Positions 2,817 to 35,073 of a stretch of DNA of 37,402 nucleotides are shown here, one piece after another. The DNA is from a virus: the IMG/VR virus record IMGVR_UViG_3300031669_000107, positions 1-37,402 of that record; one strand, given 5' to 3'. A program made the translations under genes and the position numbers. The notes beneath the pieces were generated by a model. It saw only the letters and a list, made by a program, of their open reading frames with translations. It was not told the DNA's origin and made no database searches. The stretch's first letter is position 1. The number at the start of each line of letters is the position of its first letter.

Positions 2817-3278
2817 TTAGCTGATAATGATGTCAAAAGCGTAGATTCCACCGAGTGACCGGTAATGAATCGCTGCGTTGTCGGCGCTCTGCAGCCGGTA
2901 GATTCTTGAAATGTTGTACTCTCCGCCCTCAAGGTGTAAATATTCATCCGGTCGCATTTCGTTGAATGCACTATTCTGCTTTTTCGCATCGATCTGGACA
3001 ACTGCAATGTCGATCATAAGCAACTTGGAGTCAATAGTTGACGGTGCACATTGTGCAACGTCAACTTTCAGGATTTCATTGATGTTGGAAAAGATCATTT
3101 TTTCCTCTTTGTTTTCGAACAGCAAGTCATATTGCCTTGCTTCAAGGTTTTCTATTGCCTGTCGCAAGCCAACCCCGTGATTCACTCCACCACAAATACA
3201 AGTGCATCGCATGCTTTTTGCATTATAGCATTTTTCATCGCATTTGTGTGCACCATCTGAACTAATTAGAATAATCAT
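2817..3278 (-). CDS. Cys-rich putative metal-binding early protein
   Basis: A protein of 153 residues. The N-terminal 35 residues hold a cluster of possible metal ligands: C13, C17, C25, C27, C29 and H34, in the string CTCICGGVNHG. I have seen similar CxC-GG-NHG segments in conserved phage and bacterial proteins of unknown function, and zinc or iron-sulfur binding is plausible. The remaining 115 residues are a mixed alpha/beta region without a known motif. ATG at 3278 has GGAG nine bases upstream. The gene stands alone between two intrinsic terminators (3301-3332 and 2783-2811), so it is either reached by read-through or has an undetected promoter. Confidence 0.65.
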   Translation of the reverse strand: MIILISSDGAHKCDEKCYNAKSMRCTCICGGVNHGVGLRQAIENLEARQYDLLFENKEEKMIFSNINEILKVDVAQCAPSTIDSKLLMIDIAVVQIDAKKQNSAFNEMRPDEYLHLEGGEYNISRIYRLQSADNAAIHYRSLGGIYAFDIIIS

Positions 3279-3353: not shown

Positions 3354-3881
3354 TTACAGCTGTCGCGCTTCTGCCGGAAGATAGCCGATCCAGCCGGTCG
3401 GCGCTTCCGCACCGGCACCTTTCACGCGGTACAGCTCTGCCTGTTCGTCGAACTCGATCCAGATTCGATCTTCAGGATTCGGCACAAGTATCAGCTTGCG
3501 GGTGACAGCAACCATTTCTGGCCGACCGATATGAAACGTTTTGAAGATGTCCATTTCGGAAAGCACATGGTCAGTGGCTGCAAGGAACGCGGAACGGATC
3601 TGAACGTTGATGTTCACACCGACGGACCGTGAAGTTCGGCCAGAACCCTTGCCGATAAACAGCGTGATGTCGTCAACCAGTGTGCCAAGTTCAGCTTTGT
3701 TTCCTGTGACGAACTTTGCGATTCGCGCACGCGCTGCACGTCGTGCTTCAACTTTCGCTTTCTTGGCTGCAAGCTCTTCAGCTGTCAGAGTGACGGTTGG
3801 CACGGTGCCGGGTACCACGGACGTCTGTGCGGACTTTGCGGACTTTGCTTCGGTTGACGGATTGTCGTTTTCTTTTGCCAT
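3354..3881 (-). CDS. Abundant-type early protein, unknown function (own promoter and terminator)
   Basis: I use ATG 3881 (start MAKENDN), which has AGAGG seven bases upstream; an in-frame ATG at 3923 lacks a site and would fall in the leader hairpin. The product has 175 residues: a Ser/Thr/Ala-rich tail (about 1-40), a basic helix rich in Ala, Arg and Lys (about 41-65), then a globular domain. It has a near-consensus promoter at 3941-3969 and a strong terminator at 3301-3332, so it forms a monocistronic unit, a layout often seen for strongly expressed early proteins. No family is recognised. Confidence 0.75.
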   Translation of the reverse strand: MAKENDNPSTEAKSAKSAQTSVVPGTVPTVTLTAEELAAKKAKVEARRAARARIAKFVTGNKAELGTLVDDITLFIGKGSGRTSRSVGVNINVQIRSAFLAATDHVLSEMDIFKTFHIGRPEMVAVTRKLILVPNPEDRIWIEFDEQAELYRVKGAGAEAPTGWIGYLPAEARQL

Positions 3882-3907
3882 AGTAGAACCTCTTTCCATC
3901 GAAAATG

Positions 3908-3927
3908 CAGCTTGCATACACAAGCTG
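3908..3927 (-). promoter_or_regulatory. 7-bp inverted repeat in the early leader
   Basis: CAGCTTG (3908-3914) and CAAGCTG (3921-3927) flank a 6-base loop. It lies just downstream of the expected transcription start of the 3941-3969 promoter and upstream of ATG 3881. It could be an operator or a stabilising 5' hairpin. Confidence 0.5.
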
Positions 3928-4430: not shown

Positions 4431-4502
4431 TCATTTCTCGTTTTCGGGTCTTTGCGATGATTTCCGCACAGCTGCCAATTTTTCCGTGTCAAATCTGTTC
4501 AT
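4431..4502 (-). CDS. 23-codon small ORF with strong ribosome binding site
   Basis: ATG at 4502 is preceded by GGAGG nine bases upstream, inside the last codons of the gene at 4489-4809, which it overlaps by 14 bases. The product is a short charged peptide (MNRFDTEKLAAVRKS start). The ribosome site is the same GGAGGTTCGA string used for the gene at 4279, which is the main support. Without a homologue it could be a real small protein or a translational relay. Confidence 0.4.
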   Translation of the reverse strand: MNRFDTEKLAAVRKSSQRPENEK

Positions 4503-4809
4503 TTTTTCGAACCTCCATTTGTTTGATTGCTTCGTCGATACTGAAGTCAATGAATGTGCACCATCGTGCAAAGTCCACTTGATGCAAGTAACAAACTTGA
4601 ATTGAATCCGGCTCAAAGTAGACTGGACCATTGTTGGCGAAGTAGAAATAGCCGTTACCACGCACAAGTTCTAATCCGTACGTCGGATACTTTTGGGCAA
4701 TGTGTGCGTTTAGATTTTTCATTGTGGCTTTCATTTCGGATGGATGACGGAGCACCTGTTCAGAAATCTTTTCAACGGACGTGATATCAGAAACTGTTGC
4801 TTTTTGCAT
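4489..4809 (-). CDS. First gene of the leftward early operon, unknown function
   Basis: A protein of 106 residues, start ATG 4809 with AGAGG six bases upstream. It is the first gene after the promoter at 4828-4856, so probably among the earliest made. The N-terminal 35 residues look helical (SVEKISEQVL and following) and the rest looks like a small alpha/beta fold with aromatic strands (GYFYFANNGPVYF). No membrane segment or known motif. Its position next to the control region suits a host-takeover or regulatory role, which is inference. Confidence 0.7.
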   Translation of the reverse strand: MQKATVSDITSVEKISEQVLRHPSEMKATMKNLNAHIAQKYPTYGLELVRGNGYFYFANNGPVYFEPDSIQVCYLHQVDFARWCTFIDFSIDEAIKQMEVRKNEQI

Positions 4810-4827
4810 TTCTAACCTCTTGATGTA

Positions 4828-4856
4828 ATAGTATCATATTTTGATATGTGCGTCAA
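4828..4856 (-). promoter_or_regulatory. Sigma70-type promoter for the leftward early operon
   Basis: On the - strand: TTGACG (4856-4851), a 17-base spacer, and TACTAT (4833-4828), each close to consensus. The spacer holds a short palindrome CATATCAAAATATG, a possible operator. It lies about 20 bases upstream of ATG 4809 and about 55 bases from the first TGTGACA element. Confidence 0.8.
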
Positions 4857-4911
4857 GTAAATGTTTATATTAATTTGATCAAGTTCATCCAGACAACAAG
4901 AATAGACGCGG

Positions 4912-5391
4912 GTGTCACAGCCGGGTACAGGGAACGATGATGTAAGTGTATATGCTGTAGTGATTTAACTTGTGCGTTTTACATTTTAGAGGAAGTGGAT
5001 GTGTCACAAGATAAGTTGTTGTATTATAACGAATTATTTTTCGCAGTGTCACAGCTGGCACAGTGGTGTCACAGGCTATTTTGTTGTGTTGTATAGAGTT
5101 GCGTGATTTTTTGCCTCTGTGACACGGTTTTTCTCTCAAAAAATCGGAAAAAGGAATCACATATTTTGGAGATATTTTATTATGGAGGATTATCAAGTGA
5201 AAAATGAATCTCAAGTAAGTCACTTGAGATAGGTGGGTTTCCCTTACTCGGTCACTTTCGAAAATGCTGTCACAACTGTCACAAATAGGCTAAATCTTTA
5301 TGTGATAGGGAGATAAGCTGTGACACTCCTGTGACAGCTGTGACACTGCGAAAAATATCTCTATATATTATAAGAACTTATTTTGTGACAC
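4912..5391. repeat. Iteron-like array of eleven TGTGACA elements (candidate origin/operator region)
   Basis: The gene-free stretch 4810-5495 holds eleven copies of the 7-mer TGTGACA or its complement TGTCACA, mostly inside the 9-mer CTGTGACAC. As TGTCACA: 4912-4920, 5001-5009, 5046-5054, 5066-5074, 5268-5274, 5277-5283. As TGTGACA: 5117-5125, 5318-5326, 5329-5337, 5338-5346, 5383-5391. Two at 5046 and 5066 are 20 bp apart, the spacing of two helix turns. An AT-rich stretch (5347-5382) lies between the last two copies. Clustered short repeats with an AT-rich flank are typical of iteron origins, and also of multi-site operators between divergent promoters; both readings are open. The array separates the leftward early block from the rightward late block. 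Confidence 0.75.
5208..5230. promoter_or_regulatory. Perfect 9-bp palindrome in the control region
   Basis: ATCTCAAGT (5208-5216) and ACTTGAGAT (5222-5230) flank five bases. It sits in the gap between the two halves of the iteron array and resembles the palindrome at 26085-26105, at 16 of 20 positions in the aligned part. Likely a dimeric protein binding site; a hairpin in RNA is also possible. Confidence 0.6.
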
Positions 5392-5432
5392 CTCCGTTCT
5401 CTCCACTATGTGGAAAATATGGCGCTTTCGAG

Positions 5433-5450
5433 CACCAGAAACACCAGAAA
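5433..5450. repeat. Tandem 9-bp repeat upstream of the terminase genes
   Basis: CACCAGAAA occurs twice in tandem (5433-5441, 5442-5450), about 45 bases before the first late gene. It is short but exact. It could be a terminase (pac/cos-type) or regulator binding site given its place directly before the small terminase gene. Confidence 0.4.
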
Positions 5451-5495
5451 TGAACCGAAATCTTCTATTATACGCTCTTTATAGATGGTTAATAT

Positions 5496-6026
5496 ATGAT
5501 TGCTCAGATTCATGTTACCGGAAAGTCGTGCATAGATTCCCATGATACTCTATACTATAGCTTGAGTATGGAAAACATTGCGGTTCGGTCAACAGAGCAA
5601 CTTTCACTTCAGTCTGCCCAGTCACGCCATGATGACATGGTCGCGTTTGTATTTGAGTCATTCAAGCAGACATTTGATTTAGACGTGTCGCTTGATCTTG
5701 CACCGTTGCAGGATGACAGGGAACGGGAAGAGGTTGCAAATGATCCGCTTTTGCGTGCGCTCATTGTTCGTGAAGTGGCATCGCTTAAATCGAGTTTGAC
5801 ACAGGGTTTGTACAGTCTCGCAAGTTCAGCTAAAAACGAAGGTGTAAAACTTTCGGCGATACTCAAGTTTGGTGGTCAACTGTATCCAGAGCGGTTCAAG
5901 GAAGAAACCGTAAACATGCGCCATAGCGGATCTGTCACGTTGCAACCTGCTTTGGACTTATCCAAATTGTCAGATGATGAACTTCGACAATATTATATGT
6001 TGCTTGATAAGGCGCAAGGAAGATGA
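5496..6026 (+). CDS. terS: Small terminase subunit (candidate)
   Basis: Up to 176 residues, directly before and overlapping (ATGA) the large terminase gene, the usual place for the DNA-recognition subunit of the packaging motor. The C-terminal end (DLSKLSDDELRQYYMLLDKA) is a pattern common at the end of small terminases. The middle is helical. The start is uncertain: ATG 5496 and ATG 5568 (giving 152 residues) both lack a good ribosome site. The first 24 residues look less like the rest, so 5568 may be the true start. Assignment rests mainly on position. Confidence 0.65.
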   Translation: MIAQIHVTGKSCIDSHDTLYYSLSMENIAVRSTEQLSLQSAQSRHDDMVAFVFESFKQTFDLDVSLDLAPLQDDREREEVANDPLLRALIVREVASLKSSLTQGLYSLASSAKNEGVKLSAILKFGGQLYPERFKEETVNMRHSGSVTLQPALDLSKLSDDELRQYYMLLDKAQGR

Positions 6027-7456
6027 TAGCAGCAACGTCAAGAGTACCAACAAAGCGTGATGTTCTGTGTGAACTTGCACGTCGTCATTTTTGGGATTTT
6101 TGTGTTGCTGTTGATCCAGATTTCTACACGATAGATAAAGTACATCTTGTCAAGCTTTGCAACACGCTGGAACAATTCGCATTAAATCAGTTGCTCGATG
6201 CAAACGACGAACCATATCTAAACCTGTTAATTCAAATGCCCCCGCGTCACGGAAAGTCGAGAACACTTGTAAACTTTACCGCGTGGCTGTTCGGACGTGA
6301 TGAATCAGAGCGCGTCATAACGTCAAGTTACAATGATGAACTCGCGCAGGATTTTTCGAAGTATACACGTAACACGATTCAACAGAAGCATGAAACAGAT
6401 GATCCGAGTGAGATTGTGTACTCTGATATCTTCAATGCTGCTATCAAATACGGTGATGCATCATTCGGACACTGGGCGCTAAATGGACAATTTTTTTCGT
6501 ACAAAGGTTCGGGTTTGGGTGGAACGATAACCGGAAAAGGTGCTAAATGGCTGATAGGTGATGATTGGATCAAAGGTGCAGAAGAGGCTTTTAATGAGAA
6601 TCACTTAGATTATGTTTGGCGCTGGTACACAGGTACATGGATATCACGTAAAGAAAGTGGAGCGCATGAAATTCTATGCATGACCGCATGGGCTAAAAAA
6701 GATCCAGCCGGTAGATTGCTTGATTCCGAACCCGAACAATGGTACGTGCTGCAGTTTGAAGCTTACAATGAAGAGCAAGGTATGTTATGTCCGGCCATAT
6801 TGTCGAAAACAGAATATGACAAGCTAAAATCGAAAATGGACGAAGTGATATTTGCAGCGAACTATCACAACAAACGAATTGACGTTAAAGGTTCACTTTA
6901 TGGAACACTCCAAACTTACGAACAACTTCCCGTTGATAGTAATGGGAATCTACTTGCTGAAAGAAAAATCAGTTACACAGATACAGCTGATACCGGTGAC
7001 GACTTTCTATGTTCTATATCAGCAATTGTACACCAAAAACTTGTCTACGTCACCAATGTATATTTCACTCAATTAGCGCAAGAAGTGACAGAGCGCGAAA
7101 CAGCAAAGCGTATTGTTGAAAACGACATGCGCGAAATAATAATTGAGTCTAACAACGGTGGACGCGGGTTTGCACGCAACGTTGAAAAGATTTGTCGTGA
7201 AGAGCTGCATTATCTGAAAGCTATCTTCACATGGAAGCATCAAAGTAAAAACAAGATATCGCGTATTTTGACTGAAGCAACAAATGTGAAAAACAATATT
7301 CGTTTTCCTGTTGATTGGTCGGTACGTTGGCCGGAGTATTACGCTGCAATGCGTGACTATCTACGTTCAGGAAAGAACGCACATGACGATGCACCGGATG
7401 CAACAACAGGGTTGATTGAGCATTCTACAAATAATGTTCGTTGGGGTGTTCAATGA
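6023..7456 (+). CDS. terL: Large terminase subunit (ATPase and nuclease)
   Basis: A protein of 477 residues, the packaging motor that pumps DNA into the prohead and cuts it. Walker A is MPPRHGKS at 72-79, and Walker B is WLIGDD at about 176-181. The C-terminal RNase H-like nuclease shows acidic residues in YTDTADTGDD (D320, D323), IIIESNNGG (E375) and HDDAPDA (454-460). Length and motif order fit the Terminase_6 type. Start ATG overlaps the small terminase stop and the stop overlaps the next gene, both as ATGA. Confidence 0.95.
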   Translation: MIAATSRVPTKRDVLCELARRHFWDFCVAVDPDFYTIDKVHLVKLCNTLEQFALNQLLDANDEPYLNLLIQMPPRHGKSRTLVNFTAWLFGRDESERVITSSYNDELAQDFSKYTRNTIQQKHETDDPSEIVYSDIFNAAIKYGDASFGHWALNGQFFSYKGSGLGGTITGKGAKWLIGDDWIKGAEEAFNENHLDYVWRWYTGTWISRKESGAHEILCMTAWAKKDPAGRLLDSEPEQWYVLQFEAYNEEQGMLCPAILSKTEYDKLKSKMDEVIFAANYHNKRIDVKGSLYGTLQTYEQLPVDSNGNLLAERKISYTDTADTGDDFLCSISAIVHQKLVYVTNVYFTQLAQEVTERETAKRIVENDMREIIIESNNGGRGFARNVEKICREELHYLKAIFTWKHQSKNKISRILTEATNVKNNIRFPVDWSVRWPEYYAAMRDYLRSGKNAHDDAPDATTGLIEHSTNNVRWGVQ

Positions 7457-10702: not shown

Positions 10703-11959
10703 ATGAGTGTACAATCGGATCTTGTAGCGAAGCGGAATGAACTTGACGCGGTAAACGCAAGAGTCAAGAAAATCCGTGAACAGTCGAACGTCGGTAACAA
10801 TGAGTTTGATCTAACAAAGTCAAGCGAATTGTCGGGAACAAAAGAAGAGCGCGTAAACGAAATGCGCAAGCTCAAGACTAAAATGGATGCACTCGGCGCA
10901 GAAGTTGACGCGCTTGTCGCGGTTGTCGAAGCGTTCAAGGAAGATACCGGTTCAGAAACGCAGCATGAACAGACGCACGGACAGTTCGATGCAAAAGGTG
11001 AACGACGCGGAGAACAGAAGTCAATCGGACAGCGTTTTATCGAAAGTCCATCATTCAAGTCTTTCCGCGAAGGAAAGATTGCGATGAATCAGGTGAAACT
11101 TGATCTTCCCGATATTGAAGTGAAAACTTTGATGACGGAATCAGCCGGATTTGCACCGCAAGCAATTCGCACAGGGTATGTTGAAGGTTATCCGGTTGAA
11201 CCGATCGGACTTTTCAACTTGATTCCGAAGGGAACAACTGGACAGATTGCCGTTGTTTATATGGAAGAAACTACACGAAACATGGCTGCAGCTGAAGCAA
11301 CAGAAGGTAGTGGGGCATATGCAGAATCCGCAATTGCATATACAGAGCGAAGCGAATCAGTACAGAACATCGGACATTTCATTCCTGTCACCGGTCAACA
11401 GCTCGAAGATGTGCCAATGATCCAGAGTTTGATTGACAATGATATGAGAATGGGACTCATGGAACGGTTGGACTCTCAGCTGATAAACGGTGATGCAGCT
11501 GCGCCAAATGTACGCGGATTCCTGAACGTTACCGGAAGATTAACGCAGAGCGCAGCCGGTGTATCAGCACTCGATGCACTTTACAAGGCAATCACGCAGA
11601 TCGGCAAAAATGCATTCGTTCCGGCAACAAACATCGTGCTTAATGGTGAAGACTGGGAACCTATTCAGCTCATGAAAGATGATGACGGTGGGTACATCTG
11701 GGGTCACCCGGCAAACATCGGACCGACGCGGATTTGGGGACGACCGGTAACGGTAACATATCGTCTTGCGAAGGGTACTGGACTTGTCGGCGCGTTCAAC
11801 AAAATGAGCTACTATGAAAGACGCGGAATCGTGATTGAGATTTCAGACTCACACGACACGTACTTTATTTACAACAAGCTTGCAATTCGTGCGTCGGTCC
11901 GTGCGTGCTACGTCTGGACACGTCCGCAAGCGTTTTGCGAAGTAGATTCCTTGAGCTAA
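10703..11959 (+). CDS. Major capsid protein (HK97 fold) with N-terminal delta/scaffold domain
   Basis: A protein of 418 residues, start ATG with AGGAG nine bases upstream. Residues about 1-100 are highly charged and helical, the coiled-coil delta domain that acts as built-in scaffold and is removed by the protease just upstream. Residues about 125-418 form the shell, with typical order: N-terminal arm, a conserved VYMEETTRNMAAAEATEG stretch, a long spine-helix region and a C-terminal strand region with a GRPVTVT element. No separate scaffold gene is present, which agrees with the built-in domain. Confidence 0.92.
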   Translation: MSVQSDLVAKRNELDAVNARVKKIREQSNVGNNEFDLTKSSELSGTKEERVNEMRKLKTKMDALGAEVDALVAVVEAFKEDTGSETQHEQTHGQFDAKGERRGEQKSIGQRFIESPSFKSFREGKIAMNQVKLDLPDIEVKTLMTESAGFAPQAIRTGYVEGYPVEPIGLFNLIPKGTTGQIAVVYMEETTRNMAAAEATEGSGAYAESAIAYTERSESVQNIGHFIPVTGQQLEDVPMIQSLIDNDMRMGLMERLDSQLINGDAAAPNVRGFLNVTGRLTQSAAGVSALDALYKAITQIGKNAFVPATNIVLNGEDWEPIQLMKDDDGGYIWGHPANIGPTRIWGRPVTVTYRLAKGTGLVGAFNKMSYYERRGIVIEISDSHDTYFIYNKLAIRASVRACYVWTRPQAFCEVDSLS

Positions 11960-11961
11960 GG

Positions 11962-12011
11962 CAAGCCGATAGGCTTGTAAAATCTAAACTGCGTCGAAAT
12001 AAATAGACGCA
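11962..12011 (+). promoter_or_regulatory. Two small hairpins after the capsid gene
   Basis: CAAGCC/GGCTTG (11962-11967 with 11972-11977, 4-base loop) and TGCGTC/GACGCA (11990-11995 with 12006-12011, 10-base loop). No T-run follows either, so they are more likely RNA processing or stability elements between two highly expressed genes than terminators. Confidence 0.5.
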
Positions 12012-12025
12012 AAGGATGGTTTTTT

Positions 12026-12631
12026 ATGGGTATTCCTGCACACGTAGCCGGGTTTCAATCAAACGGCTATAAGACTCAGAATGCAGCGACTGTGATACAG
12101 TTCAATCTGCCGGGTGTAAATGGGCAGCGTCTTGGACTTTCCGAACTATTGTATCTTGCAGCTGCGACTGCACACACTGCAACGTTAATGGTGCCGGGTT
12201 CAAGCGCTGGCTGCAAAAATAGCGCTTCGGCTGCAGCTGCAGCCGGACAGAAGGTTATCAACGTTGTTTCAGATCCGCTCGACCCATCGGGCAACGCTGC
12301 AGCTGCAGCCGACTGGGTTGCATATCAGGATGCTTCCGGTACGTGGAACTTCGACACGGTAAACGGTGTTGTCGGAAAAGCTGTCACCATGACGAACAAC
12401 ATTGTTGCAGCTGGAATTGCTGCGGGTGGACTTGTTCGATTCTTCGGTGTAGCCGGTGATTTGAACGGTGCGCAGCTTTCACTTCCAGCAAGTTCAACAA
12501 CTGAGTATGGTAACGGAAGGCTTGTTTGGGTACATCCGGACAGAAGCGAACCGGCAATACTGCAGATCAACAACATCACGAACGCGGGTTTTCACCTGAA
12601 CAGCCTTTTCCTTTACTTGGATAACAAGTAA
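12026..12631 (+). CDS. Head decoration protein candidate
   Basis: A protein of 201 residues, start ATG with AAGGA upstream. It is rich in Ala, Gly, Ser, Thr and Asn with few charges, has Ala-rich runs at about 70-76 and 92-96, and looks like a beta-rich exposed structural protein. It stands alone between RNA hairpins (11962-12011 and 12647-12678), directly after the major capsid protein, the usual place for a decoration or auxiliary capsid protein. No homology is claimed; the call rests on position, composition and expected high expression. Confidence 0.5.
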   Translation: MGIPAHVAGFQSNGYKTQNAATVIQFNLPGVNGQRLGLSELLYLAAATAHTATLMVPGSSAGCKNSASAAAAAGQKVINVVSDPLDPSGNAAAAADWVAYQDASGTWNFDTVNGVVGKAVTMTNNIVAAGIAAGGLVRFFGVAGDLNGAQLSLPASSTTEYGNGRLVWVHPDRSEPAILQINNITNAGFHLNSLFLYLDNK

Positions 12632-12646
12632 ACGTCGAATAAAATT

Positions 12647-12678
12647 AGTACCGGAAAGCGCAAAAACTTTCCGGTACT
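12647..12678 (+). promoter_or_regulatory. Perfect 12-bp hairpin after the decoration gene
   Basis: AGTACCGGAAAG (12647-12658) pairs fully with CTTTCCGGTACT (12667-12678) around an 8-base loop. No T-run follows, and the next gene's ribosome site (GGAG) starts three bases beyond the stem. It may protect the upstream mRNA from exonucleases, weakly attenuate transcription, or regulate the next gene. Confidence 0.65.
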
Positions 12679-12693
12679 TTGGAGATAGTTGCC

Positions 12694-12885
12694 ATGCGTA
12701 TAATGAAGCATGTAGAAGAAGATTTGAAAGCGCTTCGGGATTTTTCGTCAAAACATTTTGACTTCAAGAAATCAGACAAAACTGAAGAGACAAAAGCAAC
12801 TGAAACAGAAGATACCGAAGTCGAAGAGACTGAATCAACGGGCAATCCGAAGATGAAGTTGAAGGTACCAGAAGAGAACAAGTAA
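12694..12885 (+). CDS. Small acidic protein, unknown function
   Basis: ATG 12694 (MRIMKHVEEDL) with GGAG upstream gives 63 residues. The first 25 look helical; residues about 28-53 are a Thr/Glu low-complexity run (repeats of TE and EE) predicted to be disordered. Small proteins of this kind between head genes and connectors are often unknown or have a minor scaffold-like role. No family is recognised. Confidence 0.6.
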   Translation: MRIMKHVEEDLKALRDFSSKHFDFKKSDKTEETKATETEDTEVEETESTGNPKMKLKVPEENK

Positions 12886-26299: not shown

Positions 26300-26761
26300 T
26301 TAATTCGGCCATTGTGTTATATGCGACAGAACAGACAATATTTCGTCCGCGACTTCTTGATTGTATGCAGCTGAATGTTTACCATCGATATTGTGTACAA
26401 TCAGTTCTGTTTCTTGCTTTAGCGTACAAAGATCGATGTACGCATACAATATATTGTAACCTTCTATGATGTGCAAGTCGTGTCCATTGTCTCGATTCTC
26501 GATAACGAGGAACAGAAATGTTTTGCCACCTAAGCGCTTGTGTGAATACAACCAATTGATTTGACCCGGACGAAACGGAACATAAATTGTTCCATCCTTT
26601 GTCACTTCTGCGATTTTTGATTCTATCCAGCCGGAAACCATCGATGTGCGATAGAAGATATCTGGTATTCCAGAATGTGCATGTGATTCAATCGGCTGTA
26701 CAATAATCGGGTACTGTTTCAAGATCCTTTTCAGCCATCTGCGTAAATCTGTTTCTGTCAT
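26300..26761 (-). CDS. VRR-NUC-like PD-(D/E)XK nuclease
   Basis: A protein of 153 residues, ATG 26761 with GGGAG upstream and ATGA overlap with the polymerase gene. Motif order is GIPD (31-34), then WIESK (45-49, the E-x-K), then RPGQ (64-67), as in VRR-NUC nucleases, which act on branched or flapped DNA. It is the last gene of the leftward replication block. Likely role: resolving branched DNA before packaging, or flap processing in place of the 5' nuclease domain that the phage polymerase lacks. Confidence 0.7.
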   Translation of the reverse strand: MTETDLRRWLKRILKQYPIIVQPIESHAHSGIPDIFYRTSMVSGWIESKIAEVTKDGTIYVPFRPGQINWLYSHKRLGGKTFLFLVIENRDNGHDLHIIEGYNILYAYIDLCTLKQETELIVHNIDGKHSAAYNQEVADEILSVLSHITQWPN

Positions 26762-28587
26762 GCTGTATACTCCCTTTTCAGCCCATCGAAATTAGCATCT
26801 TCAAGTTTTGCCCATGATGTACCGATTTCTGCGTCTGCCTGTATCGGAACTTTCAACTTGATGCATGTTTCCATGATATGTTTAGTTTCTTCGAAAGCCT
26901 CAATGCCAATGCGTGTTTTCGGAACCGACATATCAAGTTCATCATGCACTGTTAGATGTGGTGGCATGATATCAAACAGTCCAGCGTGGTATATTTCAAT
27001 CATCGCTTTTTTCATAAGATCGGCTGCAGATCCTTGCACAAGTCGGCAATACATGGTATATGCTTTGTCAGGATCAACAAGATGTTCACGTCGATTCAAG
27101 AATGTTCTTATATAGCCTCTTCTACGTCCGGTCTGTTCAACAAGATGCATTGTTGCTTTTACATACGGTGCGCGCGCGTGGTAGATATTCATTATCTCAT
27201 ATGCATACTCTATCGACCAACCAAAGAACTCTGCCATATGCCGAATACCCATTCCGAAAGCTACACCATAGTTCAGATTTTTGGATAGTGGACGTGTAAG
27301 CGATGTAAGCAGCATAACAAACTTGTGATAATCTGTTGTCGGATCTTCGTTATATGCTTTGCGCAGCTCTTCAGCACCTTCACCGACTGCAAAATGTGCC
27401 ATGAACCGGTATTCGATTTGCGAGTAGTCTATCTTGCCCCAAAGATGTTCCGGAAATGGTATAAAATCTTCCCTGCATTTTGTACCATAAAATTCATCAC
27501 GATCTTTTGACGGTTGTTGTTGCAAGTTCGGGTGTGTTGAAGAGAACCTACCGGAACGTGTTCCAACAAGTGCACCGAAGTTGTCATTACGCAGATTGTG
27601 AAATTGACAATGTATCAATCCGTCACCTGTCACATACTTGACATGACTGCCCATGATGAAGTTGTTGTTGATACGCGCAGCTTTGCGTATTTGTTCGATG
27701 TCATGTATCAACGGCACTGTCTCCGCGAAGCGTGTAAAAAACGCTTTGTCTATTTGCGGATTTCCTTTTGCTGTCTTTGGGTAGGCTATTCCTTGACTAT
27801 CGAGCAGTGTAGCTATCTGTTTCGAACTGTTGTAATTGAACTCTCCATACTGTTCGTATAACTTTATGCGTGATGATTCGATTATGTTTTGAATCTCAAG
27901 TCCGTTTCTATCACGTCTATCTTGATCGATCAACACACCGGTTTTACGCATGAGAAGCAACACGCGAATCAATTCACTTTCCATAGCGAAAAGATCCATC
28001 AAGTTCTGCTCTTCAAGCTTTTTCAATTGCAATCTAAAAATCTCTATTGGCAGATTTACATCTTCTTTCGCGTAACGTCTTACAAGTTCATAGGGCATTT
28101 TCCAAAGCCACTTTCTTGAATCACCTTCCAAACCGTTTTCGATGCAGAATCTATCTATTTCGGTTGTCTCTTTTCCTCGTTTCAGATACTTGAATCCAAG
28201 AAAATCAAGGTTGTATTCTTCCTGTGTTTCATCAAGCAACGCTTCAGCAATATCAATGCTTGCAAGTCTACCATTCACTTTGATATGATCCGGTCCATTT
28301 TCAAGCCAGTCCAGATCGTACATTATGCTTTGGCCGAGTTTCGGAATGTTTGAAGCAAACACATCGCGCAGATATTCAATATTCTGTTCGCGTTCCTGCT
28401 TTCCACAATCATAATGGCCTATGTTGTAATACTCAGAGAATCCTTCTCCATTCGAAATAGATACACCTAACAGCTTGCTTCCATCATCACGGAAAACACC
28501 CGGACCCATTTCAATCAAGTTCGGATCATACGTTTCAGTATCGAATGATATTATCTTAGCTTTACTCAAGTCTGGATAGTTCATCAT
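26758..28587 (-). CDS. polA: Family A DNA polymerase with 3'-5' exonuclease
   Basis: A protein of 609 residues. Proofreading motifs: DTE at 16-18 (Exo I), YDLDWL (Exo II) and YAKED (Exo III). Polymerase motifs: A, KIDYSQIE at about 384-391; B, around KNLNYGVAFG at about 435-444; C, HDE at about 548-550. There is no N-terminal 5' nuclease domain, as in T7 polymerase. ATG overlaps the upstream stop and lacks a ribosome site of its own, so translation is probably coupled. It is the replicative polymerase of the phage by inference. Confidence 0.95.
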   Translation of the reverse strand: MMNYPDLSKAKIISFDTETYDPNLIEMGPGVFRDDGSKLLGVSISNGEGFSEYYNIGHYDCGKQEREQNIEYLRDVFASNIPKLGQSIMYDLDWLENGPDHIKVNGRLASIDIAEALLDETQEEYNLDFLGFKYLKRGKETTEIDRFCIENGLEGDSRKWLWKMPYELVRRYAKEDVNLPIEIFRLQLKKLEEQNLMDLFAMESELIRVLLLMRKTGVLIDQDRRDRNGLEIQNIIESSRIKLYEQYGEFNYNSSKQIATLLDSQGIAYPKTAKGNPQIDKAFFTRFAETVPLIHDIEQIRKAARINNNFIMGSHVKYVTGDGLIHCQFHNLRNDNFGALVGTRSGRFSSTHPNLQQQPSKDRDEFYGTKCREDFIPFPEHLWGKIDYSQIEYRFMAHFAVGEGAEELRKAYNEDPTTDYHKFVMLLTSLTRPLSKNLNYGVAFGMGIRHMAEFFGWSIEYAYEIMNIYHARAPYVKATMHLVEQTGRRRGYIRTFLNRREHLVDPDKAYTMYCRLVQGSAADLMKKAMIEIYHAGLFDIMPPHLTVHDELDMSVPKTRIGIEAFEETKHIMETCIKLKVPIQADAEIGTSWAKLEDANFDGLKREYTA

Positions 28588-28901
28588 TCAGCCACATACA
28601 CATTGTTTTTCGGAAGAGTTTTATCGCTATCCTTCTCAGTAAAGACACCTATTTTTATCAAAGGCTTATCATCTAATTGGACAAGATAATGTATTTGACA
28701 ACCTGCAATGATAATGCTCTTATTTCCAGAACCTAATACAAGAAACCAATTTGTTGACGGTCGAATAGGGACGAATCCAAGTAGATCATCTATCTTGACT
28801 ATTTCAGCTTTTCCCCATGCAGCTTTGTATTGTTCACCGTCTGGACCAAAAAACCAACCATCCGATGTAACAAGATAATATTTTCCCTGTTCAATTTTCA
28901 T
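28584..28901 (-). CDS. Hypothetical protein between zinc-ribbon and polymerase genes
   Basis: I take ATG 28901 (MKIEQGKYYLVT), which has GGAGAAG upstream; a longer in-frame start at 28949 would overlap the upstream gene by 59 bases and lacks a site. The 105 residues form short beta strands (YYLVTSDGWFFGPDG; NWFLVLGSG; IIIAGCQIHYLVQL), suggesting a small beta-barrel. Barrels of this size often bind nucleic acid or protein, but no family is recognised. Stop overlaps the polymerase start. Confidence 0.65.
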   Translation of the reverse strand: MKIEQGKYYLVTSDGWFFGPDGEQYKAAWGKAEIVKIDDLLGFVPIRPSTNWFLVLGSGNKSIIIAGCQIHYLVQLDDKPLIKIGVFTEKDSDKTLPKNNVYVAE

Positions 28902-29268
28902 TTCTGTTTCTTCTCCTGCATTTCTCAGAACAGTATTTTTTACCGGCATGTGACGTTGTAAACGTCTTGCTGCAAATCGGGCATACTTTATCAGTTGGCA
29001 TTATCTTCTTGTATACGGTAGCCTTGCGCGCAAGTTGACACTCTGCACTACAATAAACTTTTCTTCTGTTGTTTGTCAAGAAGGATCTTCCACAATTCTT
29101 GCAAAGCTTTTCCCGTGTCGGTTTGTATTCATAGTATCTGTTTGATGGAAGCTTATTGTAGTAAAGTTCCCTGTGCTGGTTGTTGCAGAATATTTGATTG
29201 CCAACCAAAGGAACGAAACGCGCGTTACAAAACTTGCAAACTCTTTCCGGTGCGATTTTTAATTTCAT
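28891..29268 (-). CDS. Triple zinc-ribbon protein
   Basis: A protein of 125 residues made of three similar units, each C-x2-C-x13-C-x3-(C/H): C11/C14/C28/H32, C56/C59/C73/C77 and C96/C99/C113/C117. Each should bind one zinc ion. Units two and three share YCSxxC, and the protein ends in a basic KCRRRNRNEN tail. DNA or RNA binding is likely. It sits between helicase and polymerase genes (TAATG overlap with the helicase gene), so a replication or transcription accessory role is inferred. The exact x13-x3 spacing in all three suggests internal duplication. Confidence 0.7.
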   Translation of the reverse strand: MKLKIAPERVCKFCNARFVPLVGNQIFCNNQHRELYYNKLPSNRYYEYKPTREKLCKNCGRSFLTNNRRKVYCSAECQLARKATVYKKIMPTDKVCPICSKTFTTSHAGKKYCSEKCRRRNRNEN

Positions 29269-30680
29269 TATCGCATTCTCACATAGCCATCATAACCGTT
29301 CTTAGATGTTGACGCAATGATGTGCAGATTCTTTTTTGCACGTGTCACTGCAACGTACAAACAACGTAGTTCTGCATCCGGGTTGCGCTCCATGTTCAAC
29401 TTTACCGATTTCGTGAAATCCATTATTAGAACAACATTATCAGCTTCTCCGCCTTTGACTCCGTGTATTGTGTTCAGCATCACCTTGTTTGATGTGACAT
29501 CCGATTTCAGCCGAATCAAATCGCGGTAATAGATTATTTGTTCAGGTTCAAGCATCAACGTTTCGAACCATGGCTTTGATAGATCAATTGTACCTTGTGT
29601 GTACAGTTTCAACGAAACCTCTTCCACGTCTGTTAGTTTTCCTCGTTTCCGTGCACGCTCATAATCATTTATCGCTTTGATGTGTCGCGGATCTACTGAA
29701 GGTTTATCTTTGTCCATATAGACAATACCGTTCTTTTGCAAGTATTCTCGATGCAGAAACAGGAAGTAATTGTTTCGGGACAAGAAGTAGTACGTTTCAT
29801 CCGGGTTGACTTTCAATTCGTCAATATCATTATAGAAGTTTACAGTTCCGGCTGCACCTATCGCGTTGAACTTCTTGTCAACTCTCGTTCCGATTCTTTG
29901 ACTGATTGACTTTGCAACGTTCAAAACTTGATGCTGTAGTCTGTAGCTTTGCTGAAGGATTTCTTGACTTTGCGCAGCCATAGACAGGAACATATGCACA
30001 TCGGCACCATTCCATTCATAGATAGCTTGATCATCATCACCCGCGACATAAACACGTTTTGCATTTCTAAATGCAACTTCGCACATTCTCCATTGCAGCG
30101 TTGTCAAGTCTTGCGCTTCATCGATAATCGCAACCTCAACAGGTAACGGTTCATCGCGCATGATGAAAGCTTCGATGATGTCCGTGAAGTCAACAATCTT
30201 CTTGTGAAGTTTGAACCGGCTAAAGTTGCGTTCAACACCGTCGAGTTTCAACATATCAATATCAAAGTTTAAATCTTCAATGAATGTTTCCGACGCTTTC
30301 AGGTTGTTTCGTTTCAAGAAATGCAAAAACAGATATTTGTCATCATTGTTGAAAAACTCTTCGCTGTAGTATCCTACAAACTTCATCGACATTGCATCCG
30401 AAAACTCTTTGTAATCTGCTTTTGATATCATGTCATATTTCGAATATGATCCTGTACGGAACGCGATTGAATGGAGCGTGTGAAAGTAGGGAAGATCATT
30501 TTCAGTGTACTTGAATTGTTCCTGTGCGCGTTGAACACCCTCGTATGTACCTTTTCGTGTGAATGAACAAAAGGCGATCTTGTCTGGATCAACTTGCTTC
30601 AACTCTGTTTCAAGTATTGCCATTAACCGTGTCGTCTTTCCGCAACCGGGTGCGCCGAAAATCTTTGTCACATTATTCAT
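29268..30680 (-). CDS. UvrD/PcrA-like superfamily 1 DNA helicase
   Basis: A protein of 470 residues. Walker A is GAPGCGKT (9-16). Further motifs in order: IDEAQD (about 185-190), VAGDDDQAIYEWNGA (motif III), QQSYRLQ (IV), NTIHGVKGGEAD (V) and YVAVTRAKKNLHII (VI). Shorter than cellular UvrD (about 720), so the 1B and 2B insertions must be reduced. It probably unwinds DNA at the fork or in recombination, with the primase upstream. It is one of two helicases in the block; the other is SNF2-like. Confidence 0.93.
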   Translation of the reverse strand: MNNVTKIFGAPGCGKTTRLMAILETELKQVDPDKIAFCSFTRKGTYEGVQRAQEQFKYTENDLPYFHTLHSIAFRTGSYSKYDMISKADYKEFSDAMSMKFVGYYSEEFFNNDDKYLFLHFLKRNNLKASETFIEDLNFDIDMLKLDGVERNFSRFKLHKKIVDFTDIIEAFIMRDEPLPVEVAIIDEAQDLTTLQWRMCEVAFRNAKRVYVAGDDDQAIYEWNGADVHMFLSMAAQSQEILQQSYRLQHQVLNVAKSISQRIGTRVDKKFNAIGAAGTVNFYNDIDELKVNPDETYYFLSRNNYFLFLHREYLQKNGIVYMDKDKPSVDPRHIKAINDYERARKRGKLTDVEEVSLKLYTQGTIDLSKPWFETLMLEPEQIIYYRDLIRLKSDVTSNKVMLNTIHGVKGGEADNVVLIMDFTKSVKLNMERNPDAELRCLYVAVTRAKKNLHIIASTSKNGYDGYVRMR

Positions 30681-30683
30681 GGC

Positions 30684-32303
30684 TTAAAATTGTTCTCCAT
30701 CTTTCGAAAAGTCCGCTTTGAACGACTCATGTGTGATTTCAGAAATTGCATTCAACTCTGATTCACTAATGCTGTAAACGCGAATCTGTTTGTTTGATTC
30801 TGTCCGAAGTCGAAACGGAATAGCTTTGAAATCTCGAAGCAGTCCATGCAGTTCGCTTGATCCATAATGTCGGAAGTTTCGAACAGTCCAAACGTAATCA
30901 ATTAGATCGATGGATCTAAAGTAATAACGATCTTCACTTTCATCACGGTATACGCGCTTGCTCAATATCTGATCTTTCGTCACAGCCATTGCACGATTGA
31001 GAAGGAACTCTTTGAACATTTCCTTCAACATCGCCATAGGTGACGTGTCATAATCCTGTTCAACGTTGCGCACTTCAACATGCACAATAGCTTCGTTCAC
31101 AATCCCGAACCATACAGCTTGTTTCACCTTGACAGGAAGCACATGAAGTTCACGCATACAGAGCTGCAAAAACAAATCCTGCTTGATGATATCATTCTCA
31201 TTCCTGAAACGCAATAGCTTATAATCGCTTGCTGATTGTGTCTTTACTTCCCATTCGTAATAAGGTTCATACGCACGAATCTGGTAAAGCTTCCCGAACT
31301 CTAATTCGGAAAAGTATCCGCCTTCTTTGCCAATCCCGTATTCCTTCTGTTTGCATACAGCTTTCCGGCAGAAGTCAACACAGGGTGTATCAAGGCATTT
31401 GTATGTGTAGTCCTTCTTTCTCAAGGATGCAACAACAGAACTCTCAAGTTCACCTTTTTCAAGCGGTTCGAGCATGTTTGCATTGATTTCAAACAAACGT
31501 TGTTCCCAGAAATCTGGATCTTTTTTCTTCAGATACACACCAAACGAGAATAAAAAGTTATTGCGTCCGCTGTTTTTGTCCATGATATTCAATAACGATA
31601 TTGTTTGCAAGCACGGTGGACCATCTGAAAAAGCCAAGTTCCGAAGAAAGGCTTTCACTTCATCTGCAGTTAGTTGTTTCTCGTGAATGTAGGAAAGAGC
31701 TGCATCAAGCGATAACGCTTTACCGGCTTTCATCGCGTATTGTCGCGTTTCGGTTGCATTGTAGTATGGTAGATTGATCCAATTGCCGATCTTCCCATCA
31801 CCTGCTTTTGACTGCTTTGGAAAGATTTCGAGTATCCTGTTCAGCTTTCGTTTCACATATAGATCTATTGCTAACACACTACTCATTGACTGAAGCAATT
31901 CGATAACCGTTTTCGCTTCTGTCTCGTGCTTCAGGAACAGATATATATGCAAACCGCCCGACTTCGAACGAAACGGAATAAGTGGGAAATTGTTTTTCTC
32001 AATTGCAAAAATGTAAGCATCTAAATCCGCGTCATAAACATCAACGTCTATAACACCGAAGTTACACTTTCCTTGCTCATTGATTGGTATTACACCCAGC
32101 CCCATTTTACCGGATAGGTGTGCTTTGTATTGTTCGGCTGTTATCAGCCTATCAGTCAAAGTTTTGTTTTTACCAGATTCCTTGCCCGACTTAGCAAAAT
32201 TGTATTCATGCTGTCCGTAGTTGTGCGTGTTGCCACGGAACAGGTGCATATAATCGGCAAGCAGAACTGTTTCAACATCGTTTGTGTTTTCAGCATCGGA
32301 CAT
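30684..32303 (-). CDS. Archaeo-eukaryotic-type primase (PrimPol-like)
   Basis: A protein of 539 residues. Residues about 65-200 form an AEP-type primase domain: GVIPINEQGKCNFGVIDVDV with metal ligands D86 and D88, SKSGGLHIY (about 113-121) with H119, and D147 near EIFPKQ. This resembles the AEP primases of TOTE systems and mobile-element PrimPols. A Cys cluster C-x4-C-x3-C-x4-C in about 300-320 may bind zinc. The C-terminal part (about 330-539) is probably a helical or winged-helix region. It likely makes primers for the phage polymerase. ATG 32303 has AAGGA upstream. Confidence 0.85.
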   Translation of the reverse strand: MSDAENTNDVETVLLADYMHLFRGNTHNYGQHEYNFAKSGKESGKNKTLTDRLITAEQYKAHLSGKMGLGVIPINEQGKCNFGVIDVDVYDADLDAYIFAIEKNNFPLIPFRSKSGGLHIYLFLKHETEAKTVIELLQSMSSVLAIDLYVKRKLNRILEIFPKQSKAGDGKIGNWINLPYYNATETRQYAMKAGKALSLDAALSYIHEKQLTADEVKAFLRNLAFSDGPPCLQTISLLNIMDKNSGRNNFLFSFGVYLKKKDPDFWEQRLFEINANMLEPLEKGELESSVVASLRKKDYTYKCLDTPCVDFCRKAVCKQKEYGIGKEGGYFSELEFGKLYQIRAYEPYYEWEVKTQSASDYKLLRFRNENDIIKQDLFLQLCMRELHVLPVKVKQAVWFGIVNEAIVHVEVRNVEQDYDTSPMAMLKEMFKEFLLNRAMAVTKDQILSKRVYRDESEDRYYFRSIDLIDYVWTVRNFRHYGSSELHGLLRDFKAIPFRLRTESNKQIRVYSISESELNAISEITHESFKADFSKDGEQF

Positions 32304-32348
32304 TTTTAGTATGTTCCTTCACAATACAGGATATCACGAGAAAGAGAA

Positions 32349-32367
32349 AGCCGGGTTGAACCCGGCT
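32349..32367 (-). terminator. Hairpin terminator after the SSB-like gene
   Basis: AGCCGGGTT (32349-32357) and AACCCGGCT (32359-32367) form a tight stem. On the - strand TTCTCTTTCTC follows, T-rich though not a pure T-run. It lies 18 bases after the stop at 32385, so it may reduce read-through into the primase and polymerase genes. Confidence 0.65.
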
Positions 32368-32384
32368 ATGGTGAAGAAACGTTC

Positions 32385-33146
32385 TTAGAATGGTGTCTCT
32401 GCGTCGTTCGCTTCGGAAGCACCTTCAAGCTGTCGATAGTCAATCTGTCGTGCAGGAAGCGCCTTGCGTTCGTCTTTGACGGCAAGATATTCCTGTTCCT
32501 GTACGTACCTTGAGAACATCGGACGTGGCCGGTACCACGTACCTTTATCATTCTCTTGATACTCTGTAACCAGTTTCCAAACGAGATAGTACGGCAGTGC
32601 ACGCTGTCCATTTGGCATGACGTGCGTACTCATGAGCCGATTCCACTCACGTGCAACCTTCAGTGCTGTTGACGCAAGTGACAGTACACAAATACCCTCT
32701 TTTTCATGTCCGGCAACAAGCACCATATACACGTAGTTTTCCTGCAGAATGTTGCCGGTCGCTGTTTTCATCTGTCCGAAAGCTCTTGTTGCTGCAAGAC
32801 GTTCTGCATTTTCTGGGCTGTGATACCCGGCAAATCCTCCACGGTCCGGTCTCCATTCGATGAAAATCTGTTCAAACTTTCCAACAACAACTTCAATTTC
32901 ATTTCCGTAAACCTCGTGCGTGATTGTGTTGAAAAACATTCCCTCTTCAGCTTCTGCGATATATTCCGGCTTTCTCTTGTCAAGCTGCGGTGAAAGCTTC
33001 TGCAGAACTCGAATGAACGGAATCGCCATTGTTCCGGTATTGATCTGTTCAAAACCATCTGCCTTGTCATCACCGGACAGGAATGAAAAAGCCTCTTCAG
33101 CTTTCTTTGCTGCGTCTGCAGCATCACTTGCATTGAACTTGCCCAT
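32385..33146 (-). CDS. Single-strand DNA-binding-like protein
   Basis: A protein of 253 residues, ATG with AGAGGG upstream. The middle (about 40-140) resembles a phage family with MAIPFIRVLQKLSPQ, then GMFFNTITHEVYG and a IEWRPDRGGFAGYH element, found in replication regions. The C terminus is acidic and ends DAETPF, the kind of tail (as DDIPF in bacterial SSB) used to recruit partner proteins. It stands amid replication genes with its own terminator after it, fitting a protein needed in quantity. OB-fold assignment is inference. Confidence 0.6.
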   Translation of the reverse strand: MGKFNASDAADAAKKAEEAFSFLSGDDKADGFEQINTGTMAIPFIRVLQKLSPQLDKRKPEYIAEAEEGMFFNTITHEVYGNEIEVVVGKFEQIFIEWRPDRGGFAGYHSPENAERLAATRAFGQMKTATGNILQENYVYMVLVAGHEKEGICVLSLASTALKVAREWNRLMSTHVMPNGQRALPYYLVWKLVTEYQENDKGTWYRPRPMFSRYVQEQEYLAVKDERKALPARQIDYRQLEGASEANDAETPF

Positions 33147-33175
33147 TTGTAACCCTCTTTCCTTATTGAATTGTC

Positions 33176-33192
33176 AATGTACAACGTACATT
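33176..33192. promoter_or_regulatory. 7-bp palindrome upstream of the SSB-like gene
   Basis: AATGTAC and GTACATT flank three bases. It lies about 30 bases before the ATG at 33146 and overlaps the end of the upstream gene. It could be an operator for the SSB-like gene. No convincing promoter boxes were found beside it. Confidence 0.4.
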
Positions 33193-33832
33193 AAAAAGTT
33201 GCATGTTTCTTTTTTGAATTGGTAACTTTCGCTTCGCTGTAAATGTAGATTTTTAGCATGTCGGAAAGATCCTCTACACGTTTGTACAATCCAGCTGCAA
33301 TGCCTTTTTCCCGGTCCTCTTCGCTTGCGTCAAGCCCCAGAAGTTCAGTCACGTACTTTTTCAGCGTCGCAGCGTGTATTGCTTCTTTCGTCTCATAATC
33401 GACACCCTGTTCGGAGAGTTGATTAAGCATAGAGAAAAGTTCTTTCCGTTTTTCTTCTTCCATCCGGTCAAATGCAACAGTAAACTTGATGATGTCCGTT
33501 TCATTTCGTTCAGCAAGGAAGCGATAGAACTCAGCTTCTGTTAATTCAGGAACAGAAACCTGTACGCCACGCTTCACAGAAACTTTTCGACCATCTGCAA
33601 GCGTGACTTCGGCAAAGCCGTACTTGTTCATCAACGCGGGAATCAATGTCAAACGCAGCAAGTTAGCGCGTTTGTTCCATTCTGCAAGTCGCTCTGTAAG
33701 AAGTGCAAGTGCGTTGTTCGCTGTGTCAAACATCGCCATGTATTTTTGCAGCTCTGCAAGTGCATCCTCTTTACCCTCTTCCTTGTCTGTCTCGGCATTG
33801 TTTGCCAAGAAATCCGGTACAATTTCGCTCAT
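33191..33832 (-). CDS. Conserved phage replication-region protein, unknown function
   Basis: A protein of 213 residues with GGAGG before ATG 33832. Residues about 20-65 form a coiled coil, followed by IPALMNKYGFAEVTLADGR, a KVSVKRGVQVSVPE beta hairpin, and a C-terminal part with EAIHAATLKKYVTELL (about 150-165). This order recurs in many phage proteins found near nucleases and family A polymerases and is superficially like Gp157-type proteins. No catalytic motif. It may be an accessory or ssDNA-associated factor. Confidence 0.65.
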   Translation of the reverse strand: MSEIVPDFLANNAETDKEEGKEDALAELQKYMAMFDTANNALALLTERLAEWNKRANLLRLTLIPALMNKYGFAEVTLADGRKVSVKRGVQVSVPELTEAEFYRFLAERNETDIIKFTVAFDRMEEEKRKELFSMLNQLSEQGVDYETKEAIHAATLKKYVTELLGLDASEEDREKGIAAGLYKRVEDLSDMLKIYIYSEAKVTNSKKKHATF

Positions 33833-33843
33833 TCTTGAACCTC

Positions 33844-34062
33844 CATTAAAAGTTATCTTTCATCAAAATCGGGAACTGACATAACATCGTCGGCAATACT
33901 ATTTCCGAATACAGATCGAATATAGTCTACAATGTATCTGCGCTCTGCTTTGTGTGCGTCCTTGTGCGCTTCCTGAAACTGTCGGCGTAGTTCGACATTT
34001 TCAGAGAGAATATCTGGAGCTGAAGCGATAAGTAGCGCGTTCGCTTTTGTTTTCCGTTCAAT
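33844..34062 (-). CDS. Cryptic small phage protein, apparently ATT start
   Basis: An open frame of 72 codons fills the gap between two genes. It contains KANALLIASAPDIL near its start, a motif very common in small phage proteins (ANAxLIAxAPDLL), then a charged helix (ENVELRRQFQEAHKDAHKAE). No ATG, GTG or TTG exists before this motif back to the upstream in-frame stop. ATT 34062-34060 overlaps the TGA of the nuclease gene as ATTGA, just as ATGA elsewhere. The last 20 codons look atypical, and another frame there reads more naturally (DDVMSVPDFDER), so a 2-base indel at about 33899 is possible. Confidence 0.45.
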
Positions 34063-34687: not shown

Positions 34688-34696
34688 CTTTTACTC

Positions 34697-34855
34697 CTAT
34701 AAATTGAATGTGAGAACTATTATAGCAGCACCAATTACGAACGGCACAAGCTGTTGTTTTATGGAAAGCTCTTTCGCAAATGACATTGCAGTCAAGCCGA
34801 CGATATAGCCTATTACAACCTTGCTTGTCAAAAATGAAATCAAGAATTGAATCAT
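34697..34855 (-). CDS. 52-residue membrane protein
   Basis: ATG 34855 (MIQFLISFL) overlaps the previous stop as ATGA and has AAGGAA upstream, which is better than a start 9 codons earlier. Two hydrophobic helices (about 2-24 and 33-51) are separated by a short basic loop. A two-helix hairpin of this size could be a small holin-like or membrane-perturbing early protein. Its place in the early replication block and not the lysis block argues for another role. Confidence 0.6.
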   Translation of the reverse strand: MIQFLISFLTSKVVIGYIVGLTAMSFAKELSIKQQLVPFVIGAAIIVLTFNL

Positions 34856-35073
34856 TTTTCTGTTCCTTTGTTCCATGCACAAACTGCAAGCCGTTCCGTT
34901 TCAGCTGAAGGACCGCGTGCACCGCATGAACAGCTTACATAGAAAGCAATAAGCTGTATATTCAACCGACGGCTAAAAATCGCCATTTCATCCGGGTGAA
35001 GCGTGTGACAGAATGGACACGGTGAAACAGCGTACAGAATACCCTTTGACGAAGGTATTTGTATTTGTTTCAT
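34852..35073 (-). CDS. Lar-like zinc-ribbon protein (restriction alleviation family candidate)
   Basis: A protein of 73 residues. CPFC (C19, C22), then C48 and C50 in SCSCGARGPSAET, and AVCAWN near the end match the Lar/restriction-alleviation pattern (CPFC ... CxxCGARGP ... WN). Rac-prophage Lar modulates type I restriction-modification; many phage members of the family are untested. It is co-transcribed with helicase and nuclease genes. Zinc binding is likely; anti-restriction is a family-based guess. Confidence 0.7.
   Translation of the reverse strand: MKQIQIPSSKGILYAVSPCPFCHTLHPDEMAIFSRRLNIQLIAFYVSCSCGARGPSAETERLAVCAWNKGTEK

Follow-up and report, generated by a model that had tools for sequence, protein, structure and literature searches.

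A mirror-symmetric array of heptamers and palindromes in a tailed phage: a candidate replication origin accompanied by a predicted winged-helix protein

Origins of the lambda type and those of iteron plasmids are characterized by clustered binding sites (palindromic in lambda) beside AT-rich DNA. Omega heptads adjoin one another without gaps, and the protein that binds them is of the ribbon-helix-helix type. In pSM19035, these omega (ParB) sites are 7 bp long and occur in both orientations (PMC9499535). The stoperators of Cluster A mycobacteriophages are a short site, present in many copies, to which a phage repressor binds (PMC9283540). At oriV of RSF1010 (IncQ), RepC iterons and the RepA helicase are combined with the RepB' primase at the ssiA/ssiB hairpins, and a stem-loop origin with a primase-polymerase has been shown for pRN1 and proposed for phage BIP-1 (PMC4234260, PMC4434180).

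Here, we describe an intergenic array of short heptamers (H) interleaved with palindromes (P) in a tailed phage. The window analyzed is a whole IMG/VR virus record of 37,402 bases; contigs and genomes of relatives are denoted by L- and G-numbers. A literature search on the motif and on this type of origin found nothing relevant, and how replication starts in phages with a cassette of primase-polymerase, PolA and SNF2 helicase is, to our knowledge, not known. The closest working model is that of RSF1010, with an initiator on the repeats, DNA that opens and an archaeo-eukaryotic-type primase that starts at a hairpin. The oriV of RSF1010 resembles the array in its repeated initiator sites (putative in the phage), its opened region and its stem-loops for a primase of this type (PMC4234260, PMC4434180). 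The array differs in having two kinds of site in a mirror dyad, a central hairpin that is not constant and other helicase types, and its candidate binder is not RepC-like by any search. Replicons of the pRN1/BIP-1 type are like the array phages in their primase-polymerase, winged-helix DNA-binding part and stem-loop, with bidirectional forks proposed (PMC4234260). In pRN1, however, the origin consists of one stem-loop of 100 bp that follows the replication gene on its downstream side, whereas the array is multi-site and intergenic.

Lambda-type and iteron plasmid origins share with the array the clustered sites beside AT-rich DNA, but they rely on uniform direct iterons in or beside the initiator gene and on a DnaB-type replisome, whereas the array has two interleaved elements in a fixed 19/25-bp geometry and no DnaB system was recognized. 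Of the features expected of an iteron origin, the window has clustered repeats (11 H and 5 P in 480 bp), which are putative initiator-binding sites, and adjacent AT-rich DNA; since no cognate initiator of a known Rep family was found among its scanned proteins, we do not assign the array to any of the known iteron families. Whereas stoperators are dispersed throughout the genome, sites above background are confined here to one locus. Compared with omega heptads, the array has 9/11-bp spacing, is interrupted by P and has a winged-helix protein as its universal partner.

Genome organization of the window

The 126 bp from position 2 onward are repeated at the end of the window, which leaves a unit of 37,275 bp and implies a circular or terminally redundant map. 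The array occupies a divergent intergenic region between a leftward replication operon, running from 4809 down and across the map end to 26.3 kb, and a rightward structural operon from 5496 to 26.1 kb with terminase, portal, protease, capsid and tail genes, which agrees with the first-pass annotation in placing it between early and late transcription units. The following features flank or accompany it:

3354–3923, minus strand: predicted winged-helix protein, proposed array-binding initiator or regulator (P preferred), whose family accompanies the arrays in all ten lineages
4489–4809, minus strand: first gene of the leftward operon, adjoining the array; phrog_9154 (function unknown), for which a role in H binding is a guess
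4828–4856, minus strand: likely early promoter outside the array, TTGACG-17-TACTAT with an extended -10 TG; a consensus match only
5496–6026, plus strand: probable terminase small subunit, first gene of the rightward operon, preceding the large terminase gene; relatives exist
26300–37014, minus strand: replication cassette co-inherited with the array, encoding VRR-NUC-like, PolA, UvrD-like helicase and TOTE-type primase-polymerase proteins, Pam3 gp34- and gp33-like proteins, a PD-(D/E)XK-like protein and an SNF2-type helicase

Among the scanned proteins of the window, PHROGs and Pfam searches recognized no known initiator, in line with the earlier remark that a typical iteron initiator is missing, and no DnaB loader, integrase, repressor or ParA/ParB-like protein; neither Rfam families nor tRNAs were found in the window. 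Good promoters of sigma-70 type are found outside the array, on its early side, in L013 (TTGACA-17-TATATT), L016 (the same) and L018 (TTGACT-17-TATATT), with a weaker one in the window, and L020 has one on the other flank. Given these canonical early promoters outside it, the array need not be a promoter.

A change of GC skew at the array, suggested earlier as a check, is present as a minimum at or near the array in the window (~4.5 kb), G010 and G013. Because this minimum coincides with the switch in gene direction, it does not decide between an origin and a switch. The maximum falls where the operons converge (69% around G013) and not opposite the array, so that transcription could produce the skew.

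Several minor features were observed elsewhere in the window. A small protein encoded at 34852–35073 resembles Lar-like restriction alleviation proteins (phrog_599), and CTGCAGC reaches a local density of 8 in 686 bp at 11651–12836, a stretch that includes the gene at 12026–12631 and its surroundings, where it probably reflects alanine-rich coding sequence. Another small protein (2817–3278) carries the conserved Cys-rich motif CDxxCYxAkxxxCxCICGGxxHGxGL; the copy in the window has no Pfam match, and the protein is also encoded near the winged-helix gene in L013, L016 and G010.

Heptamers, palindromes and their geometry

All eleven TGTGACA copies counted in the first-pass annotation are present, with exact TGTGACA/TGTCACA starts at 4913-, 5002-, 5047-, 5067-, 5118+, 5268-, 5277-, 5319+, 5330+, 5339+ and 5384+, against about 0.2 expected in the 686-bp region, and nowhere in the window does another 7-mer reach this density over 686 bp. 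The count against a shuffled background that had been recommended gives 19 in the entire 37.4 kb versus 10.9 expected from dinucleotide shuffles, with the excess in the array; the 8 copies in the other 36.7 kb are therefore background. Copies 20 bp apart occur as two pairs, 5047/5067 and 5319/5339, where such a spacing had been noted. The earlier description of copies in both orientations holds in that both strands carry them, but TGTSACA is palindromic save for its central base, so that the distinction hangs on a single position and orientation assignments are weak. GTGACA resembles a -35 box, and a -10-like hexamer follows some copies at 18 bp.

Three further features had been overlooked: a twelfth H site with one mismatch (5056, TGTGCCA), the P element and the exact mirror symmetry of the two halves, whose H sites are spaced by 11, 9 and 45 bp on each side. 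The array consists of the following parts:

4913–5390, no strand assigned: composite array in two mirror-image halves, with 11 exact and 1 near TGTSACA heptamers and 5 P palindromes
4943–4967, no strand assigned: far left P, 14.0 bits, with no H at the standard distance
5002–5073, minus strand: H sites of the left half at 5002, 5047, 5056 (TGTGCCA) and 5067; spacings 45, 9 and 11
5012–5036, no strand assigned: outer left P, TAAGTTGTTGTATTATAACGAATTA, 19.7 bits
5077–5101, no strand assigned: inner left P, 12.5 bits, 65 bp from the outer left P
5125–5267, no strand assigned: dyad centre, with an AT-rich block (28% GC, 5140–5229) and the hairpin 5208–5230
5268–5283, minus strand: H pair inward of the inner right P; the left-hand partner, 5118–5124 (plus), is less regular
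5291–5315, no strand assigned: inner right P, 14.5 bits
5319–5390, plus strand: H sites of the right half at 5319, 5330, 5339 and 5384; spacings 11, 9 and 45
5356–5380, no strand assigned: outer right P, TATCTCTATATATTATAAGAACTTA, 20.1 bits, 65 bp from the inner right P

A 19-bp stretch, TGTGACACTGCGAAAAATA, is common to 5339 (plus) and 5047 (minus), and the steps of 9 and 11 bp place the H sites on nearly one helix face.

P is a 25-bp AT-rich palindrome, five copies of which stand between the H groups of the window. Its matrix, iterated over eight loci, converged on the consensus TAATTCCTTATACTATAAGGAATTA with 44 sites. For the window, a matrix built without the window's own sites was used, with a cut-off of 12 bits and first-order Markov sequences as background; it gave exactly five matches of at least 12 bits in the entire window (4943, 5012, 5077, 5291 and 5356), all within the array, where 0.1 were expected. 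P was also found in two genomes that took no part in defining the matrix (three sites in G017, two in G018), and control contigs lacked it. Across relatives, P is conserved and H drifts (TGTGACA, GGTGACA, GGGTACA, CGTGACA and TGTAACA), so that the most conserved element of the array is the palindrome and not the heptamer.

H and P keep fixed distances from each other. Among exact motifs within 15–29 bp of a P, 31 of 35 H centres lie 18–20 or 24–26 bp from the P centre, whereas 5000 cyclic shifts of H against P averaged 6.9, never exceeded 19 and so never reached the observed value; the test addresses relative placement, and its classes are post hoc, since the same loci served to define both distance classes, the heptamers and the P matrix. 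When the window is omitted, 25 of 28 distances fall into the classes (0/5000), and the window alone gives six of seven (22/5000). Neighbouring P elements 65 bp apart share one H triple in the window (5012/5077 and 5291/5356) as well as in L013 and L016, and L015 and L019 likewise have P elements spaced by 65–66 bp. At the core, two P elements mirror each other with their long (25-bp) sides inward, separated by 134–149 bp in most relatives and by 214 bp in the window. That P is conserved and H drifts while their geometry stays fixed suggests that they are bound by two proteins whose rates of evolution differ.

The AT-rich block and the perfect palindrome described earlier were both recovered. 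Low GC content is found in the centre and in a second block at 4810–4869 (27% GC), compared with 43% for the genome, and the hairpin has 9-bp perfect arms and a 5-bp loop. When the centres of ten loci were folded as single-stranded DNA and compared with dinucleotide shuffles, a hairpin clearly beat the shuffles in three (L015, z -4.4; L019, -3.3; G018, -2.9) and was weak in four (the window, -1.2 despite its perfect 9-bp stem, L012, L016 and L018); in the remaining three of the ten it was absent (L013, L020) or insignificant (G017).

Relatives and the candidate binding protein

An array at the same place in related phages, which the first-pass annotation had proposed to look for, was found. 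A scan of IMG/VR with the spaced triple TGTGACA-N4-TGTGNCA-N2-TGTGACA yielded six contigs, two of which (L012 and L013) encode relatives of the 3354–3923 protein, and a scan with the family of this protein (A1) yielded further contigs; wherever these include the region upstream of the winged-helix gene, a dense short-repeat array lies close by. The heptamer is GGTGACA in L016 and L018, GGGTACA in L020 and L023, and of GTGACA type in L019 and L015. A scan with the SNF2 protein added two genomes, G017 and G018, both with the winged-helix protein and with P near its gene. Altogether, ten independent lineages were distinguished (the window, L012, L013, L015, L016, L018, L019, which equals G010, L020, available at greater length as G013, G017 and G018); L021–L023 are closely related to L020, and L017 is the reverse of L013. 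All relatives are metagenomic or uncultured, and several are fragments.

The array, the winged-helix family and the PrimPol/PolA/UvrD/SNF2 cassette occur together in the window, G010 and G013, and the family is encoded by each of the five genomes recovered with this cassette (PrimPol or SNF2-type helicase), namely these three, G017 and G018. G013 shares the cassette with the window at 53–57% identity for the large proteins and has no match to its capsid, portal or large terminase. The array and the winged-helix protein thus go with the replication cassette rather than with the structural genes. An association of the array with the terminase was considered and rejected, as phages found by the large terminase alone (L001–L004) lack the array. 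The public phage record MW202510, whose primase is 32% similar, has neither P nor the winged-helix protein. L046, an 8,080-bp contig of a Mycoplasmatota metagenome bin, encodes a 55% identical SNF2 helicase and carries no P; as the sole genome contig with a related SNF2 gene it may hint at a host, or it may be a stray phage contig.

The 3354–3923 protein is predicted to comprise a low-confidence N-terminal part, which is probably disordered in view of the model, a long helix and a well-predicted winged helix (AlphaFold2 pLDDT 85–89 over residues 91–160) with the helix-helix-turn-helix-beta-hairpin wing. Its fold matches the BirA N-domain (Z 7.4), NiaR, PurR and OmpR-type domains; the Z values are modest, so the assignment is made at the level of fold. 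No sequence match was found in Pfam, PHROG or PDB, and relatives were absent from phage and plasmid records and from genome contigs, an absence that is weak for the genomes, which were scanned with one narrow peptide pattern. The first-pass annotation had expected a binder that is new or host-encoded; a new phage-encoded family does accompany the array, and its binding is proposed here. Since the recognition region of the family (IGRPEM...) and P are both highly conserved and H drifts, we infer that the winged-helix protein binds P and that another protein binds H.

Two other proteins were rejected as binders. A small second winged-helix-like protein (alignment A5), encoded downstream of the array in L015, L016, L018 and L019 and matched on the minus strand in L012, was not found in the window, L013 or G013 and was therefore not taken as the general binder. 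The 110-aa protein at 2380–2712, by eye a ribbon-helix-helix regulator, has no significant family match and a relative in G010 alone, so it is not a universal H binder.

Origin, control region and other explanations

Of the two functions raised in the first-pass annotation, origin or master switch, the pair was well chosen, and the data lean to an origin without settling the matter. We see about even chances that the array serves as a composite replication origin with dyad symmetry, to which the winged-helix protein would bind. The winged-helix protein would bind P as a dimer, a second factor would bind H on nearly one helix face, ~19 and 25 bp from P, and the mirror-image halves would wrap or bend the DNA such that the AT-rich, often hairpin-forming centre opens. 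The primase-polymerase, the SF1 and SNF2 helicases and PolA would be loaded at the opened centre, and forks would depart both ways, along the early and late operons. The constancy of the H-P geometry across phages with differing H sequences counts for an origin. So do the joint inheritance of array, winged-helix family and replication cassette, the restriction of P matches in the window to the array, the mirror pairs of P, the hairpin in the centre of some loci, the early promoters outside the array, the position of the skew minimum, and the lack of a recognized initiator, DnaB loader, integrase or repressor among the scanned proteins of the window. More tentatively, and with somewhat less than even confidence, a new class of phage origin is suggested, in which a conserved 25-bp P and a fast-drifting H are interleaved in fixed mirror geometry, recognized by an undescribed family of winged-helix initiators and served by a primase-polymerase/PolA/SNF2 replisome without a DnaB-type loader.

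A divergent control region is a serious but, in our view, clearly less probable explanation. It would be an enhancer or operator complex in which the winged-helix protein and a second factor, on P and H, govern the early and late operons through repression, activation or timing. Counting against an origin, several loci have a weak central hairpin or none, and transcription could account for the skew. H and P also look like -35/-10 boxes in the window, where they would double as two outward promoters (GTGACA-18-TATAAT, 11/12, minus; GTGACA-18-TATATT, 10/12, plus), and in L013 (GTGACA-18-TATACT). The array stands at the start of the operon encoding the winged-helix protein, a layout of autoregulation, and a lone strong P of 29.5 bits just upstream of polA in G013 (33566–33590; L029 13566–13590), away from the array and overlapping the ribosome-binding region in the polA leader, suits an operator. 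However, the promoter reading is not conserved: none lies inside the L020 array (H = GGGTACA), where TGTGACA as a -35 box and thus a pure promoter function fails, and L013, L016 and L018 have good early promoters outside their arrays. For an operator the sites are numerous, with as many as about ten P and a dozen H at one locus; both are hardly present at other genes, and, as neither an integrase nor a known repressor was recognized among the scanned proteins of the window, a lysogeny switch is unlikely. The two functions, origin and control region, may also be combined in one site.

A pac or cosB-like packaging site, at which the small terminase encoded beside the array would bind the repeats much as lambda terminase binds the R sites that precede its own gene, would agree with the position of the array upstream of that gene in the window, L013, L015, L016 and L019 and with small-terminase relatives in most loci. 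We nevertheless consider it improbable: the winged-helix gene and others intervene between array and terS in L012, L018 and L020, P and the geometry persist in G013 despite an unrelated large terminase and a barely similar terS (E 0.0085), and we know of no pac or cos layout with a mirror dyad of 134–214 bp and an AT-rich centre. Some phages persist as plasmids, and a partition, centromere-like or other nucleoid-type site, for example of an extrachromosomal prophage, was weighed as well. Heptamer arrays bound by the omega repressor/ParB of pSM19035 offer a precedent (PMC9499535), but no ParA/ParB-like protein was recognized in the window, and palindrome-plus-heptamer geometry with mirror symmetry is unlike contiguous heptad arrays, which makes such a site the least probable of the explanations considered. 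An origin bound by the winged-helix protein is thus the preferred reading; a defined site, a candidate initiator family and strict spacing rules in about ten lineages provide a direct basis for assays of binding and origin function.

The P matrix can also serve as a marker for this phage group in metagenomes. In L043 (G017), the P elements of the region 6400–7100 are flanked by another repeat, of the type TATACAA/GTATACA and with steps of ~9 bp. Clusters of TGTGACA with 9/11-bp steps occur in four seemingly unrelated phage contigs that have neither P nor a relative of the winged-helix protein (A2), at L009 7952–8041, L010 12001–12057, L011 6153–6414 and L014 1069–1294; L009 and L010 also encode, by eye, CsgG-like and IscU/SufA-like proteins.
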